Of a DNA stretch of 64,000 bases, positions 57,156 to 64,000 are shown piece after piece. The translations under genes were made by a program, and so were the position numbers. Source of the DNA: Bdellovibrio bacteriovorus str. Tiberius (GTDB lineage: Bacteria; Bdellovibrionota; Bdellovibrionia; Bdellovibrionales; Bdellovibrionaceae); NCBI RefSeq assembly GCF_000317895.1, contig NC_019567.1, forward strand, positions 2,542,001-2,606,000, given 5' to 3'. Numbering within the stretch: position 1 is the stretch's first letter; the number at the start of each line of letters is the position of its first letter. The notes beneath the pieces were generated by a model. That model searched no databases, was not told where the DNA came from, and saw only the letters and a program-made list of their open reading frames with translations.

Positions 57156-58319
57156 GTGAGACATATAAATTTTCAGCACGTCCTAATTGTCATTGCGTCC
57201 CTTATTTTGACCAGCCAGGCTCAAGCCTATCCTGATTTTATCGGGTACAGCTATTCCTCCTGCATCACCTGCCATTACAACGGTCTTGGCGGCGGAGCCC
57301 TGAATGATTACGGTCGCGCCCTGTTTGCCACCGAGATCACCTCCCGCTCTGTCTTCCCCAAGAACATGGAAGAGGAAGAAATCGCGGAAATGTCCGGCTT
57401 CCTGGGTAAAAAGAAGCTGCCTTGGTGGGTTCGTCCGGGTCTGAAATATCGCGGCCTGTGGCTGAAGATGGAGCCAGGCTCCACTGCCACCACTGAGCGC
57501 TACATCAACATGCAAAATGATGTGAATTTGAACTTCTTCCTGGACAAGAAACAGACTTATTCCATCATCACGACAGTTTCCTACACCGGTATTGAGCCCT
57601 ACTACGGCAAAACCAACACCTGGTTCATGCGCGAATACTATCTGCGCTGGAAACAAAGCAACAACTTCTGGCTGTACGTCGGCCAGATGGACAAAGCTTA
57701 TGGCATCCGCAACGTCGATCACTCGGCCGTCAGCCGTAAAGCCATCACACTGGGGCAGTTTGACCAGTCCCAAGGGGTGATCGGTCATTTCACTTATCCG
57801 GACTGGGATGTGGCTGTGAATGCCTTCTTCGGAAATGCCGCTCAGGAAGACCCGCAAAAACAAAAAGGCTTCTCTGTGGCGGGGGAATACCAGGTCTATG
57901 AAAAGTTCAAAGTCGGTGCTTCTGTACTGACGTCACAAAGTGATTTGCAACAGTGGAACCTGGCAGCCCTGACCACGCGTATGGGCCTGTCCAAGGGTTC
58001 TGCGATCATGGGTGAATTCGGTCTGCGCCAAAAGAAAGACAAAATCGCTGACTCAGAGGCCGAACTGGGCACCTATGCGATTGTTCAGACCATGGTTGAA
58101 ATCCAGCGCGGTTACAACTTCCTGTCGATCCTTGAGCACACCAAAGGTGACATCAACAAATCCTCCGCCGAAGCAATGAAGTGGAGCATGGGCGCGATGA
58201 TGTTCCCTCTGCCGCGCACCGAGCTTCGTGCGATGGCAACCAATGGAAAAACTTATTCTGACACTGGTGGCGTGGACGATGCCTGGGCTCTGCAAGGGCA
58301 GATCCATATTTCCTACTAA
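57156..58319 (+). CDS. Cyc2-like fused monohaem cytochrome c / outer-membrane porin
   Basis: 387 residues. A signal peptide ends at SQAQA, then YPDFIGYSYSSCITCHYN places one haem c motif at Cys36-Cys39-His40, followed by LNDYGRAL. The remaining 330 residues or so alternate as beta-strands with aromatic girdles, like a 14-18 strand porin, ending ...IHISY. This order (Tyr-Pro-x-Phe, C-x-x-C-H, Leu-Asn-x-x-Gly-Arg, barrel) matches the fused outer-membrane cytochromes of the Cyc2 family, which conduct electrons across the outer membrane in iron oxidisers. The start is set at GTG 57156; the frame is open far upstream but overlaps the PilZ gene. Confidence 0.7.
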   Translation: MRHINFQHVLIVIASLILTSQAQAYPDFIGYSYSSCITCHYNGLGGGALNDYGRALFATEITSRSVFPKNMEEEEIAEMSGFLGKKKLPWWVRPGLKYRGLWLKMEPGSTATTERYINMQNDVNLNFFLDKKQTYSIITTVSYTGIEPYYGKTNTWFMREYYLRWKQSNNFWLYVGQMDKAYGIRNVDHSAVSRKAITLGQFDQSQGVIGHFTYPDWDVAVNAFFGNAAQEDPQKQKGFSVAGEYQVYEKFKVGASVLTSQSDLQQWNLAALTTRMGLSKGSAIMGEFGLRQKKDKIADSEAELGTYAIVQTMVEIQRGYNFLSILEHTKGDINKSSAEAMKWSMGAMMFPLPRTELRAMATNGKTYSDTGGVDDAWALQGQIHISY

Positions 58320-58328
58320 GGGACACAT

Positions 58329-58970
58329 ATGAAAAAATGGATGTTTGTACTATTTGTCACCCTTCTAAGTCAGAACGTTCTGGCCCAGGAAGAAACTGAT
58401 TCTGAAGAAACGCCGGCGGCAGAAGCCCCTGCGGCGGCACCGGCCACAACAACGGCAAAAAAACCGGCGCGGTCCCGCCAGGACTGGGGCTTGAGCCTTT
58501 CCACTTTGCAGTGGGATGAAACCCTGCGCGTTCAAGACGGCATCACCAACACCAAGGTGCCAGCCAACTACAACGCCATCACGATCACCATCATGAAAGA
58601 AATCACCTACTATCGCTGGGGCTGGAGTGCCGGGGCCTTTATCGGTGCCGGTCGCGCCAACGGCGGATCCGATGCGGATCCTTACTTGAGCGACAAAGTG
58701 GCCTTCACCACTTACGGGATTTCCCCGCGCGTATTCTATCGCCTGTCCGGTCGAATCAATGCCGGCGTGACGGGAATGCTGTTTTATAAAAATATCGACT
58801 GGCCAAAAGAAACCACCACCCAAACCATTGATTCAGGCCGCAGCCTGAACGTCACAGGTATTGCCGACTTGAATATTCGCATGTTTCAAAAGTGGGATTT
58901 CTATACCGGGATTGGTCCTTTGACTGAAGGATCCACGCTTTGGAAAATCGGTGTGAACTACCGATTCTAA
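58329..58970 (+). CDS. Outer-membrane beta-barrel protein
   Basis: 213 residues. Signal peptide MKKWMFVLFVTLLSQNVLAQ, an acidic/Ala/Pro linker (residues 21-52), then strands that form a small barrel and end in a C-terminal Phe (WKIGVNYRF), the BAM signal. It starts 9 bases after the haem/porin gene with AAGGGA upstream, so they are one operon and may act together. No named family. Confidence 0.8.
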   Translation: MKKWMFVLFVTLLSQNVLAQEETDSEETPAAEAPAAAPATTTAKKPARSRQDWGLSLSTLQWDETLRVQDGITNTKVPANYNAITITIMKEITYYRWGWSAGAFIGAGRANGGSDADPYLSDKVAFTTYGISPRVFYRLSGRINAGVTGMLFYKNIDWPKETTTQTIDSGRSLNVTGIADLNIRMFQKWDFYTGIGPLTEGSTLWKIGVNYRF

Positions 58971-58975
58971 AAGAC

Positions 58976-59003
58976 AAAGGCCCCTTTTCAGGGGCCTTTT
59001 TTT
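58976..59003. terminator. Bidirectional terminator
   Basis: AAAGGCCCC (58976-58984) and GGGGCCTTT (58991-58999) with a T run. It lies between the convergent barrel and YceI-like genes. Confidence 0.9.
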
Positions 59004-59005
59004 AT

Positions 59006-59485
59006 TTATTTTACTGGAACCGTCACTGCCAAAGTCACTTCGTCTTCAACACCGACACCCATATAGTTGATGTCCTCGATGCCAAAGTCGCTCAGCTTCA
59101 ACTTGAATTTCGCTTTCAAGGTCTTGCCTTCGACTTTGTAAACTCCGGAAATGTCTTTTTCAATGCCACGGATTTTGATTTTGCCCGTGCCCTTGCCGCC
59201 TTTACCTTTTGCGGAAAGCAAAATGGCCTCTGGGAACTTTTCAGTCTCCAGATGTTTTTGCGTGTGCTTGTCACGCAGCTCTACGCCGGTTTTCAAAGTT
59301 TTCAGATTCACAACGATGTTTTCCGCGGAAACTTCATCACCGCTCACCACGGCCTGACCTTTAACGTCAGAAGTTTTACCTTTGAAATCCCCCATCGGAT
59401 TCAAAACCACATCCAGAACCACACTTTGCGCCATCGCTGCTGTGGAAATACCCATTGTGACAATCAATGCTGCAACAAATTTCAT
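59006..59485 (-). CDS. YceI-family periplasmic protein
   Basis: 159 residues. Signal peptide MKFVAALIVTMGISTAAMAQS, then a lipocalin-like YceI barrel (VVLNPMGDFKGKTSDVKGQ, DKHTQKHLETEKFPEAIL, LKAKFKLKLSDFGIED). YceI proteins bind polyisoprenoids such as quinone-like lipids and often lie near cytochromes, as here. ATG 59485 is preceded by GGTAGGG. An in-frame upstream start would run into the stop of the next gene. Confidence 0.87.
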   Translation of the reverse strand: MKFVAALIVTMGISTAAMAQSVVLDVVLNPMGDFKGKTSDVKGQAVVSGDEVSAENIVVNLKTLKTGVELRDKHTQKHLETEKFPEAILLSAKGKGGKGTGKIKIRGIEKDISGVYKVEGKTLKAKFKLKLSDFGIEDINYMGVGVEDEVTLAVTVPVK

Positions 59486-59537
59486 TTGCCCTACCCCTTT
59501 TACTTTTGGTGATTGTTTTAAAAACATATTAAATGAC

Positions 59538-60551
59538 TTATTCAATGCTGTTGATCCAGTCAGCCACGGCTTGAACCTCTGCCGCTGACATAGAACCCGA
59601 CGTCGGCATATTGCGGGTTCCCGGACCCACTGTTGCCCCTGACAGGCGATAGTAAAGTTTTGAACCCACCAGATCCTTGGCTTTCGCCAGGCCGCGGGAA
59701 AGAGCTTTGGTCTCTGTCAGATTGCGGAAGTCACCGTAAGTCGAGCTGTTATGACAGCTCAGACACTTGGAATCGATGACCGCTTTGGCCGCCAGGAATT
59801 TTGGATTTTCCACAGTGACTTCTTTGCCGTCGTTGATCAACGCCGGATCATAAATCACGTTTTCAATCAGATTGTTGGTCGCCACATAGCGGGACATCAC
59901 ATTCAGTTCACCCTTGCTCAGCGCAAGACCGTCAGTGTCCGAACCACCATAGACAACATATTCATAGATCTGACCGTTCGCTCCGCCCGTCGCCACACTT
60001 TTCACGGTGAAGGCAAATTCACCCGGAGTTCCGGTCTTTTGAATTTCTGCCGTCTGCACCACTCCATTCACCTGCAAGGTCATTTCGGTGGGTTTCACAC
60101 CAAAGCCTGCAGCCAGTACCATCTTGCTGCCACTGCTTGGAAGATTCACTTCCATGAAGGCGATGTTACTGGAATCCGGAGCCGCACGCACCACGCGGAT
60201 CTTACCCGCAGCGATGTTGATATAGGCGTCTTCTTGATTGGCGCCCGAAGACACCGAGAACACTTTGCCGGTCATGCTTGTATCCAAAGCCACCACGAAG
60301 GACAGCTGATTGGCCATGAAAAGGGCTTTGTTCACATAGGAAGGATTGCCAGGCTTGGACCAGAAAGAAAGTTCGGTAGAGGACAGAAGTTTTGGCAGGG
60401 ATTTTTGATCCAGGGCTTCGCGGGAATCAAAGATCCCCTGTTCGTAAAGAACCTGATCCTGCAAAGCAAAGTCGCTGCAATTCTGGAACGCCAGAATCAT
60501 TGCAAGCCCCGCACTGCCGACCACAACGGTCTTTAAAACCCCTAACTTCAT
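59538..60551 (-). CDS. Monohaem cytochrome c lipoprotein, FQNC lipobox
   Basis: 337 residues. The N-terminus is MKLGVLKTVV...ILAFQNC (Cys25). Residues 60-235 look like a LamG/concanavalin-type beta-sandwich. At the C-terminus SKCLSCHNSSTYGDF (haem His267) and MPTSGSMSAAEVQAVADWI form a class I cytochrome c with a candidate Met ligand. ATG 60551 has GGGGGA upstream, and GCCGATAA is 30 bases upstream. It is the last gene of a cytochrome/DUF1501 operon. Confidence 0.82.
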   Translation of the reverse strand: MKLGVLKTVVVGSAGLAMILAFQNCSDFALQDQVLYEQGIFDSREALDQKSLPKLLSSTELSFWSKPGNPSYVNKALFMANQLSFVVALDTSMTGKVFSVSSGANQEDAYINIAAGKIRVVRAAPDSSNIAFMEVNLPSSGSKMVLAAGFGVKPTEMTLQVNGVVQTAEIQKTGTPGEFAFTVKSVATGGANGQIYEYVVYGGSDTDGLALSKGELNVMSRYVATNNLIENVIYDPALINDGKEVTVENPKFLAAKAVIDSKCLSCHNSSTYGDFRNLTETKALSRGLAKAKDLVGSKLYYRLSGATVGPGTRNMPTSGSMSAAEVQAVADWINSIE

Positions 60552-60580
60552 TCGAAATCCCCCAAAAACATACAGAACTC

Positions 60581-60588
60581 TTATCGGC
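60581..60588 (-). promoter_or_regulatory. GCCGATAA box upstream of the 59538 cytochrome gene
   Basis: Minus-strand GCCGATAA, 30 bases before ATG 60551. The same octamer occurs before the PilZ gene and before the RCC1 gene (16018-16011). A matching -35 is not visible. Confidence 0.3.
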
Positions 60589-60643
60589 ACCAAACACAAA
60601 GAACCCAAGGCCTTCGTGTTTGGTCCACTGTCTCAATATGAGA

Positions 60644-61903
60644 CTATTGCGGCATCCCCAGGTCCACCCATTTCTGAACGATGGCCTTCATCTGCGAAGA
60701 CATCAATCCAGAACGTGGCATCGGAGAGTTCGCATCATTGATACGCTTGATAATCACACCGGCCTTGGCCTTGGAAGCTGCATAGTTGCTAAGGTCCAGA
60801 CCCCCGTCTGCTCCAGCACCCGAGTGACAGCTTAAACACTGTGTTTTAAACACATTCACCTTTGCATCGGAACCAACCAGCATCGCGAATGTCACATTCG
60901 GCGGAGCCTCATCAACTGGCGCCACTTCGGTGGAACCGGTTCCGCAAGTCGCCGTGCTTTCAGCCTTTTCAATGGACGTGAACTGCAAAGCGAACTTGTC
61001 CGTTGTTTTGGTTGTCGACATCACCAAAAGCTGGGCATTTCCGACCGGAGCCAGTGCCAGCGGAGTGCCCGGGCAAACCACCGCATTGATATTGCGATAG
61101 ACCGTGGCAGAATCCAGCATCTTGTCATTCACATAGAAGAACAGACCTTTTACACGGTACTTGGCTGTGCCCGAAGTGATGGACATGGTCGGTGCGCGCG
61201 CGGCATATCCGACTTCAACCCCACCGACTTTTGCCACTTGGAATTCCACCGACATTTTCAAAGGGAATGTCGTGGCTTTTGCCGGCAGGTCCGCAGCCGT
61301 GCTGTAGTTCCATTCAATTTTCGTCCACGTGGCCGAATTGGCTTTGCTGTTCACAATCGTCGCGTTGGTTTTATTGGCTGTCACCACGGACTTATCAACG
61401 CCGTCATCACCCTTACAAGTCAAATAAGCGGCCTGGGCAGAAACCCATTCGGCTTTCAGACTGGACACAGCCCCATTATGATGGGCCCCAGTGTATGGCG
61501 GGTTGTGCGCTGGATTGATCGCATTGTCAGAAATAGCCTGATAGCCTTTGTCTTTGAAGACCTGATAGGACATCAAAGAGTTCTTCGAGGCAAAAGCCGG
61601 CGCTTCGTGATCACCGTTATGGCAACCCGCGCAGTTGTTTTTCAGAAATGTGTAATAGCCGGAGCCGAACTTGGCATAAAGCTGATCTTCACACAGGTCC
61701 CCTGTGCTCTGCTCACCTTCGTCCACTTCTTCTTCCGTGGATCCACCCGACAAATCCGAGCTGCCCTGATTGATCAGCTTCACGGTTTGCGTGTCGATCT
61801 GAAAACCTTCGCCCAGACTTTGAGCGCAGTTTTGGAATGCCACAACCAGGATCAGTCCCCCGGATACGGCCCCCAGAATCTTCAAAGATTGAAGTTTCTT
61901 CAT
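60644..61903 (-). CDS. Dihaem cytochrome c lipoprotein, FQNC lipobox
   Basis: 419 residues. The signal ends VVAFQNC (Cys26), followed by a Gly/Ser/Glu linker. Haem motif one is NNCAGCHNGDHEAP and haem motif two is TQCLSCHSGAGADGG near the C-terminus, with MPRSGLMSSQMKAIV as the likely Met-ligand region. Between them is a beta-rich domain of about 200 residues (SVEFQVAKVGGVEVGY). The two haem modules flanking a beta-domain recall the planctomycete-type cytochromes that accompany DUF1501 proteins. GGGGAAG precedes ATG 61903. It follows the DUF1501 gene after 10 bases. Confidence 0.83.
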   Translation of the reverse strand: MKKLQSLKILGAVSGGLILVVAFQNCAQSLGEGFQIDTQTVKLINQGSSDLSGGSTEEEVDEGEQSTGDLCEDQLYAKFGSGYYTFLKNNCAGCHNGDHEAPAFASKNSLMSYQVFKDKGYQAISDNAINPAHNPPYTGAHHNGAVSSLKAEWVSAQAAYLTCKGDDGVDKSVVTANKTNATIVNSKANSATWTKIEWNYSTAADLPAKATTFPLKMSVEFQVAKVGGVEVGYAARAPTMSITSGTAKYRVKGLFFYVNDKMLDSATVYRNINAVVCPGTPLALAPVGNAQLLVMSTTKTTDKFALQFTSIEKAESTATCGTGSTEVAPVDEAPPNVTFAMLVGSDAKVNVFKTQCLSCHSGAGADGGLDLSNYAASKAKAGVIIKRINDANSPMPRSGLMSSQMKAIVQKWVDLGMPQ

Positions 61904-61913
61904 TCGCTTCCCC

Positions 61914-63326
61914 TTAAGCTACGTGAAGTTTAACAACTTTTTCCACGTCGTCCGCCTGTAAGGTGGCCGGCGCAAGTTGTTTGAACAGCCCCATCTTGTA
62001 ATTCAAATTCAAATAGTTCGCCAGAATCGCCGCCGCCACATAGTCCGGACGGGATCCCACCAGCGTGGATGTATCCACACTCTGATCCGTCAGGTAATGA
62101 CCGATCTGAGTACCACTGGAAGTCACTTTGCCCTTTGGATCAAAAGCAATAATGAACTGCAACGAAGACGAATAGTCACTGGACCAGATGCTGGAAGAAG
62201 TGTCAGACACTTCCGAAGAACAAGCTCCATCAGTGGTCACCATAATGAACAATGGTTTTTTCATCTGACTGGCAAGTTCCAGCATGTTACCGATCTGCAC
62301 ACCCGCAGCGAAGTCTTTCGCATCGGCAGCAGTACGCACACCCGGAGAATGATAGTCATAACCACCCAGCGTGATACGACCGTGGGCGATATTGCCATTC
62401 AATGCATTGTACACCACACCCGCCGTCACCGCTGTTGCGTTGTTGGCTGCTGTTGCCGTATTGATTTTATAAACATTTTGCACAATGGTGTCTTTGCGTG
62501 GATCCACGCCGGAAGCACCACCGGCCGCGATAATATCACCGGACTTCACACCGGCTTCCTGCAAGGCCAGCTTCAAACCGTCATTTTTGGAATTCAGTTT
62601 TGCAACCTGGGACTTGGTCATTTTAGCAACGAAAGAAGCCAGAGTTCTTTTTTGTTTGGCATTCAAAATACCGTTGTCTGCCAAAGTACTGGAATAATTC
62701 AAAGCACCGAACATGTTGTCCAGACTTGCCAGCTCCAGGGAAGAATTGGGAGCTGAAAACACCGGACGGATATTTTCAGCGGTAGAGCCCTGATGCACAC
62801 CCGGCAAAACCTTGCCGATCAGACCTGCTCTTTCCAATGGACCGGAAAGATCATAGAACGGACGAAGAGCGGCCTGACCGTTGGTGTCGTTGGCCGTGTC
62901 CGTGCAAAGAGCCACAAGACGGGCTTTACCCAAAGTCGCAGCACTGGCCACAGACTTGATACCTTTATGCAATTGGGAGCTGGAGGCAAAGTCTGCGCCC
63001 ATCACTTTTTCAGTGGCAAAGCCGGATTTACCCAGACCCAGCTTGGTGTAAGCACCCAGCAGATTGTTGCCTTTGTCTTTCACGACAAAGTTTCCGTGCA
63101 GGGCTGCGCCACCACTCAGACTTAATGTGACAAACGGAATCATCGGGTCGCCTTCGGCCGCTACGGCCTTACTTCCCATGGTCAGAATAGAAGTCACCGC
63201 CCCGGGCACCGCCATGCGGGCCGCGAAGGAGATCACACCTGTTTCAAGCAATTCACGGCGTGAAAGCTTCAGGCTGGAAACGTCGGTTTTTTCATCCAGG
63301 ACTTTTTGCAGTTTATCGTTTTTCAT
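61914..63326 (-). CDS. DUF1501 family protein, Tat-exported
   Basis: 470 residues. Twin-arginine motif SRRELLETG (Arg23-Arg24), with a hydrophobic stretch ending around AVAAEGDP, shows export of a folded protein. The core has features of the DUF1501 family in the alkaline-phosphatase/sulphatase superfamily: FVTLSLSGGAALHGNF at the start, ITLGGYDYHSPG and FIMVTTDGACSSE later. In other phyla DUF1501 genes pair with cytochromes carrying DUF1585/1587/1592. ATG 63326 has a run of six G upstream. The FQNC lipoprotein gene is 25 bases upstream and the dihaem gene 10 bases downstream. Confidence 0.85.
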   Translation of the reverse strand: MKNDKLQKVLDEKTDVSSLKLSRRELLETGVISFAARMAVPGAVTSILTMGSKAVAAEGDPMIPFVTLSLSGGAALHGNFVVKDKGNNLLGAYTKLGLGKSGFATEKVMGADFASSSQLHKGIKSVASAATLGKARLVALCTDTANDTNGQAALRPFYDLSGPLERAGLIGKVLPGVHQGSTAENIRPVFSAPNSSLELASLDNMFGALNYSSTLADNGILNAKQKRTLASFVAKMTKSQVAKLNSKNDGLKLALQEAGVKSGDIIAAGGASGVDPRKDTIVQNVYKINTATAANNATAVTAGVVYNALNGNIAHGRITLGGYDYHSPGVRTAADAKDFAAGVQIGNMLELASQMKKPLFIMVTTDGACSSEVSDTSSSIWSSDYSSSLQFIIAFDPKGKVTSSGTQIGHYLTDQSVDTSTLVGSRPDYVAAAILANYLNLNYKMGLFKQLAPATLQADDVEKVVKLHVA

Positions 63327-63351
63327 TTTCCCCCCAAATCCCCATTGTCCG

Positions 63352-64000
63352 TTACAGAAGGTAAGATTCCGGCACGGACAACATGCCTGAACAGATAAAG
63401 ACCGCCAGTTTGTCAGACTCTGTAGCTTTCCCCAAAGCCGCAGAATCCAAAGTGCTGTAGTACTCGTCCACAGCTTGCGTGATGAAGGACAACTCTTCAC
63501 TGGATGGTTTGCGCATCCAGAAACGGTCAATCATCAGAATATACGTATTGATGGCGCCCATTTTTCCATAAGTGCCAGGACCTTTTGCAAAATCCAGATA
63601 CTTAAAGATGTCACGAGTGCCTTTTTTCTCTTTATTCACGGCTTGCTGACAGACCACACCCGCCAGGGACGTCGTGGCGATGATGCTTGGTGAGTTCACC
63701 AAAGTCAGATCATTCTGCGGAACCAGCAAGTTGCGGCGATAGTTGATCTCGGCGTTCACCGTACCCATATTGATGTCAGCACTTTTCAGATTCAAAAGCG
63801 ACATCATGGATTCCAGGGTTTGCTTCGCATCCACCGGAGCCCCGTCAATATCCGACTGGGTCTTGCTGCTCACGCTGCTGTTGCTGCCATCAACGCTGCC
63901 ACCATTCAAGGTGACTTCCTCAAGGCTGGCAAAATCAGTCTGCTGCGCACAGTTTTGAAAGCCCATTGTCACAAACAGGAAAGAGAAGCTCACACCGATT
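63352..64000 (-). CDS. FQNC lipoprotein (5' end beyond window)
   Basis: At least 215 residues; the frame is still open at the window edge. Near the edge SFLFVTMGFQNCAQQ is the end of a lipoprotein signal with the FQNC lipobox, so little more than the start is missing. A Gly/Ser/Asn linker follows. The rest is helical, with FWMRKPSSEELSFITQAVDEYY, and ends KLAVFICSGMLSVPESYLL. That ending resembles the C-terminal helices of planctomycete-type DUF1592/DUF1800 partners of DUF1501, but I am not certain. It is the first gene seen in this operon. Confidence 0.7.
   Translation of the reverse strand, partial: IGVSFSFLFVTMGFQNCAQQTDFASLEEVTLNGGSVDGSNSSVSSKTQSDIDGAPVDAKQTLESMMSLLNLKSADINMGTVNAEINYRRNLLVPQNDLTLVNSPSIIATTSLAGVVCQQAVNKEKKGTRDIFKYLDFAKGPGTYGKMGAINTYILMIDRFWMRKPSSEELSFITQAVDEYYSTLDSAALGKATESDKLAVFICSGMLSVPESYLL

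Follow-up and report, generated by a model that had tools for sequence, protein, structure and literature searches.

A predicted monohaem cytochrome-porin family on the Cyc2 plan across Bdellovibrionota

The presence of a Cyc2 gene is used as a sign of iron oxidation, and most of what is known of the cytochrome-porin plan comes from iron oxidisers. A gene of similar plan lies in the window analysed here (a 64,000-nucleotide stretch of Bdellovibrio bacteriovorus str. Tiberius, contig NC_019567.1, positions 2,542,001 to 2,606,000), and it raises the question of whether a predator carries a Cyc2, a relative of Cyc2 or an outer-membrane protein of another kind, and of what such a protein might do. 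The gene and its product (hereafter P1) are laid out as follows, in window coordinates:

57156..58319, plus strand: P1, predicted monohaem cytochrome-porin, 387 aa, GTG start, frame open further upstream
57156..57227, plus strand: P1 signal peptide, residues 1–24, ending ...SQAQA, as read from the sequence; the conserved block starts at Y25
57228..57353, plus strand: P1 haem segment, residues 25–66 (YPDFIGYSYSSCITCHYNGLGGGALNDYGR...), the most conserved stretch of the family, homologous to the Cyc2 haem segment
57261..57275, plus strand: CITCH haem-c attachment motif, P1 residues 36–40, in single copy and at the same place in 83 of 83 distinct homologues
57426..58310, plus strand: predicted 16-stranded porin barrel, P1 residues 91–385 (AlphaFold model; PDB porins at Z 20–23)
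57690..57764, plus strand: loop between strands 5 and 6, P1 residues 179–203, at the L3 position and with an invariant H189 (from loop conservation)

The N-terminus of P1 reads, in order, Y25-P-D-F28, C36-I-T-C-H40 and L49-N-D-Y-G-R54. The sequence YPDFIGYSYSSCITCHYNGLGGGALNDYGR follows the signal peptide, and no other cysteine haem motif occurs in the roughly 300 residues after it. A preliminary description of this DNA had pointed to a single CxxCH behind the signal peptide with Tyr-Pro-x-Phe and Leu-Asn-x-Tyr-Gly-Arg flanks, and this is exactly what the sequence holds. Sequence searches of P1 against Pfam, NCBIfam and the PDB returned no meaningful match. Covalent attachment of haem is plausible, since the genome holds a cytochrome c assembly gene.

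A homology search placed P1 relatives in 172 of 291 Bdellovibrionota genomes and in 82 of 163 genera. Each of the 83 distinct members that we aligned, drawn from many families, has exactly one CxxCH at a common position, and Y33, C36, C39, H40, G45, G47, Y52 and R54 are present in every one of them; R99, M119, G176, G183, H189, G254 and G319 are also invariant or nearly so (H189 in 83/83). In a maximum-likelihood tree the family splits into two fully supported clades, sub1 and sub2, the latter with the haem segment pattern FPE-IRHGY-NC-ACH-SP-GGG-L--YGR. Because some genomes carry both (e.g., G057 and G159), we regard the two as old paralogues; the window's P1 belongs to sub1, the only clade found in its genome. 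An exact-peptide scan of genome contigs with P1 returned relatives from Bdellovibrio only, and the named relatives that were fetched came from Bdellovibrio and Bdellovibrionaceae. Plasmids searched with P1 and with a sub2 member yielded no relatives, nor did viral contigs searched with the query A1, and a search of the open literature found no paper describing P1 and none joining Bdellovibrio with YceI. In one genome (L098:5630–7594, G138) the frame of the P1 homologue runs upstream into a signal-peptidase-II-like membrane protein, with comparably long frames in G205 and G256; at locus L041, a separate Peptidase_A8 gene adjoins P1.

The AlphaFold model of mature P1, built from six sequences only, has 16 strands (pLDDT 58.6, i.e., moderate confidence; pTM 0.61) and scores better than a model that included the signal peptide (pLDDT 46). 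Short turns line one side of the model and longer loops the opposite side; the longest loop joins strands 5 and 6, where porins place their constriction loop L3, and no other extracellular loop is so well conserved. Strand number, short periplasmic turns, longer outer loops and the placement of L3 thus all agree with the general porin fold, and the structural matches in the PDB are to general and phosphate porins (OmpT, Z 23.4; OprP, 21.6; OprO, 21.5; OmpU, 21.2). Per-strand tests for alternating hydropathy were mostly not significant, so that support for the barrel comes from the model and the fold match; the porin-like barrel that had been read from the letters does reappear in the predicted structure. 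At pLDDT 22–30 in the haem segment, the model gives no placement of the haem relative to the pore. Elsewhere in this genome, the only match to Porin_O_P (PF07396) is a short one (G000:C1:460043–460336, minus strand) that covers profile positions 3–100 only.

Is P1 then a Cyc2? As reference sequences we took six full-length Cyc2-type proteins from plasmids, retrieved with a consensus built on the published motif of the haem segment. Profiles of P1 and Cyc2 align over the haem segment only, with a probability of 94% when the signal peptide is included; without it, hhalign gives 95.1% (P 3e-8). As a control, unrelated segments of cytochromes encoded at the same loci give 90.0% (P 1.7e-6), a modest gap given that CxxCH is itself common to both. 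The Cyc2 haem profile nevertheless ranks 67 P1 members ahead of the first control, and when the 291 genomes are searched with a Cyc2 profile, P1 members are among the hits, again in the haem segment only, with the window's P1 below the threshold of that search (E ≤ 0.01). The two families also share a signal peptide followed by one N-terminal CxxCH, a 16-stranded porin, adjacent c-type cytochromes, an A-x-P-x-F element whose Pro lies 10 residues from the first Cys in both, and an L-[TN]-x-Y-G-R element behind the haem motif. From these comparisons, the haem segments of P1 and Cyc2 are probably common by descent.

The resemblance stops there. Cyc2 is defined by an AxPxFAR[Q/K][T/Y] signature plus PxL (Keffer et al., PMC8406198), and the same study gives OprO and OprP as its modelled relatives. 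P1 carries half of the signature: AYPDFIGYSY has AxPxF and lacks AR[QK][TY]. In place of PxL shortly after CxxCH, the window reads CHYNGLGGGALNDYGR and relatives read G-PL-TDYGR at longer spacing, a glycine-rich GxG arrangement unlike that of Cyc2 (FeGenie clusters 1–3, including Cyt572). No sequence homology was detected between the porin domains, and local profile alignments end after the haem segment. The length rule of FeGenie for Cyc2 (365 residues) is one that P1 would pass. The Cyc2-like plan seen in the preliminary description therefore stands as regards the N-terminal haem c, the 16-stranded porin and the homology of the haem segment; membership in Cyc2 does not, on either signature or barrel sequence. 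With the published signature incomplete and the barrels failing to align, P1 is, by sequence, a separate phylum-wide family on the Cyc2 plan and not a Cyc2.

The neighbours of P1 form a second line of evidence on what it might do. They comprise a downstream partner, P2, and a convergent operon on the opposite strand:

58329..58970, plus strand: P2, partner outer-membrane protein, 213 aa, with a signal peptide, an Ala/Pro-rich linker and a C-terminal part ending ...NYRF
58976..58999, no strand assigned: terminator-like hairpin, bidirectional, between the P1–P2 operon and the convergent YceI operon (pattern match only)
59006..59545, minus strand: YceI-family periplasmic protein (PF04264, E 3.8e-16), true start likely near 59485
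59538..60608, minus strand: lipoprotein with one C-terminal c-type haem motif, CLSCH (cytochrome c E 3e-4 to 7e-4, just under Pfam cut-offs)
60644..61903, minus strand: lipoprotein with two c-type haem motifs, CAGCH and CLSCH (Cytochrome_CBB3 E 9.3e-8)
61914..63530, minus strand: Tat-type exported protein (SRRELLE), start likely near 63326, no Pfam or NCBIfam match
63352..64000, minus strand: lipoprotein of the YceI-side operon, crossing the window end, 225 aa in full

The two-gene operon proposed for P1 and P2 is borne out, with both frames on the plus strand, 9 nt apart, and the arrangement conserved across the phylum: a P2 homologue lies directly downstream of P1 in 72 of 73 sub1 loci, as against none of 10 sub2 loci. 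In longer P2 proteins from another family and other genera, an N-terminal TPR region precedes the C-terminal part, and a small barrel is a plausible reading of P2. On the convergent side, the YceI protein scores 60.2 bits against PF04264, above the gathering score of 23.7, and the monohaem lipoprotein has a lipobox-like AFQNC; the YceI protein and two c-type cytochrome lipoproteins reported earlier beside P1 are thus present. The DUF1501 label of the fourth reported neighbour, at 61914–63530, was not confirmed: this frame has no Pfam or NCBIfam match at E ≤ 10, and the genome's PF07394 matches all lie elsewhere. Homologues of this Tat-type protein occur near P1 in 18 of 50 sub1 loci. The minus-strand operon continues past the window end to a 618-residue CKSCH protein. 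The Tat-type protein, the lipoprotein and the CKSCH protein together form a minus-strand operon upstream of the cytochromes and YceI (61914–63530 in the window; L104:3353–5890).

The company of cytochromes and YceI is likewise conserved across the phylum. A YceI gene lies within 4 kb of P1 at 32 of 41 loci versus 0.5 expected (32 genomes with 148 YceI genes, related to one another and covering 19 genera), and the remaining nine of the 41 have none inside 4 kb. By clade, YceI is found within this distance at 35 of 50 sub1 and 9 of 10 sub2 loci, and cytochrome-c-type lipoproteins at 42 of 50 and 7 of 10, respectively. The arrangements can be tight: at L040 the genes for YceI, cytochrome c, P1 and P2 overlap in a four-gene operon, most sub2 loci have a dihaem cytochrome and then YceI directly before P1, and at L102:4034–5206 a lipoprotein that fuses c-type cytochrome and YceI domains is encoded 8 nt upstream of P1.

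Taken together, we favour, with a probability of roughly 0.6, the reading that P1 acts in the outer membrane as a monohaem cytochrome-porin, much as Cyc2 does, with YceI and the cytochromes on the periplasmic side and P2 as an outer-membrane partner. The N-terminal segment, with one covalent haem, would sit at the periplasmic side of the 16-stranded pore, and a small soluble redox compound would enter the pore from outside and exchange electrons with the haem. Entry of a soluble compound would be needed because a single haem cannot span the whole membrane, an argument already made for Cyc2, where one haem is held unable to wire the membrane alone (PMC8406198). In the periplasm, the haem would be served by YceI, taken here as a carrier of a quinone-type lipid, and by the lipoprotein c-type cytochromes. 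By analogy, we lean somewhat towards electron export over import, as the two published YceI precedents that we found are both reductive: in Shewanella, a YceJ–YceI route that serves reduction at the outer membrane (PMC8981235), and Cbp2D, a YceI-like and cytochrome protein of Cellvibrio japonicus (PMC12542752). An export route would run from quinol to YceI and/or cytochrome c, then to the haem of P1 and on to a soluble oxidant. We offer the direction, the substrate, the loading and position of the haem and the roles of the partners as proposals. Electron exchange with the prey periplasm, raised in the preliminary description, is not favoured, because the family reaches far past Bdellovibrio, into roughly half of the phylum's sampled genera.

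Three other readings of P1 have to be weighed. An ordinary outer-membrane protein, never loaded with haem and with an accidental CxxCH, is hardly credible. Chance single motifs are indeed common—the CxxCH DNA pattern occurs 429 times in this genome versus 222 for a reversed control, so that a single CxxCH by itself is weak evidence—but one motif at the same place in all 83 distinct homologues rules chance out for P1, and the invariance of the surrounding tyrosines, glycines and arginine and the homology of the haem segment to Cyc2 tell the same way. An inward conduit is the reading closest to strict Cyc2 function: P1 would oxidise Fe(II) or another soluble reductant and feed periplasmic cytochrome c and terminal oxidases. 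Its Cyc2 architecture and related haem segment would suit this role, and the six Cyc2-type plasmid genes likewise have c-type cytochromes annotated alongside. However, the published signature is incomplete in P1 and the barrels do not align; HiPIP, which lies beside Cyc2 in one of the six (L058), was not seen in the scanned P1 neighbourhoods; and YceI, the constant partner of P1, is not annotated beside any of the six. We regard this role as unlikely.

Still less probable, in our judgement, is a solute porin that is no electron conduit and whose haem segment acts as a structural plug or gate, or as a haem-based sensor of small ligands, although several features of P1 would accommodate one. General solute porins have the fold predicted for P1; among the outer loops, the one at the L3 position is the most conserved and bears the invariant H189; and a haem-less paralogue exists. 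This copy (L056:16091–17122, genome G145) is a tandem relative of P1, 65% identical to a haem-bearing neighbour about 10 kb away, that has lost the whole haem segment with its CxxCH and kept the barrel; R99, M119 and H189 are retained, and R194, E356 and H384 are lost. The barrel of the family can apparently persist without haem. H189 and M119 may be candidates for the second haem ligand; as the haem-less copy keeps both, and as H384 is absent from three haem-bearing members, no second ligand can be singled out. Against a solute porin, the haem motif is invariant in the other 83 of 83 members, the recurrent cytochromes and YceI indicate redox work, and the branch leading to the haem-less copy is far longer in the tree than that of its haem-bearing sister (0.57 versus 0.022), as if constraint had been lifted.

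A Cyc2-like working of P1 can be set beside other known systems. In YceJ–YceI and Cbp2D, a YceI-type domain and cytochromes deliver electrons past the inner membrane (PMC8981235, PMC12542752), and a cytochrome–YceI fusion is found here too, at L102; unlike for P1, no haem-porin has been described in these systems. The window has no cytochrome b561 in the vicinity of P1; the genome's single PF01292 match is at 1,464,967. MtrAB, MtoAB and PioAB transfer electrons at the outer membrane with a porin and c-type haem, as proposed for P1, but theirs are 26-stranded barrels with a separate decahaem wire, whereas P1 has one haem motif fused to a predicted 16-stranded barrel. OmpT and OmpU of Vibrio and OprP and OprO of Pseudomonas have the 16-strand fold predicted for P1 (Z 21–23), with about 10% identity and no haem segment. 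The partners differ as well, being a second outer-membrane protein and YceI for P1 and HiPIP for Cyc2. A more far-reaching and tentative proposal, which we hold at less than even odds, is that the monohaem porin, its outer-membrane partner, YceI and the lipoprotein cytochromes form an undescribed outer-membrane module of Bdellovibrionota, distinct from both Cyc2 and Mtr, that carries reducing equivalents out of the quinone pool, by way of the pore, to a soluble acceptor.

A family found in about half of the sampled genera suggests that the cytochrome-porin plan is broader than iron oxidation. P1 would give predators an outer-membrane redox route and, if the module is real, an as yet undescribed kind of electron transfer, extracellular or, when inside prey, trans-periplasmic. 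What YceI proteins do may also become clearer through their constant link to P1.

The Cyc2 profile search of the 291 genomes also picked out one true Cyc2 (L106:1474–2841, genome G098; E 7.6e-127), in a stretch that includes a multi-motif cytochrome-like frame. Further monohaem proteins (L107:1465–2793, L108:1480–2742 and L109:382–1740) combine a Cyc2-type N-terminus (e.g., VSQWTRKYKTSCTTCHTMFPRLNYYGEKFKMNGYQ) with a barrel-like remainder, which suggests a wider superfamily of haem-tipped outer-membrane proteins.
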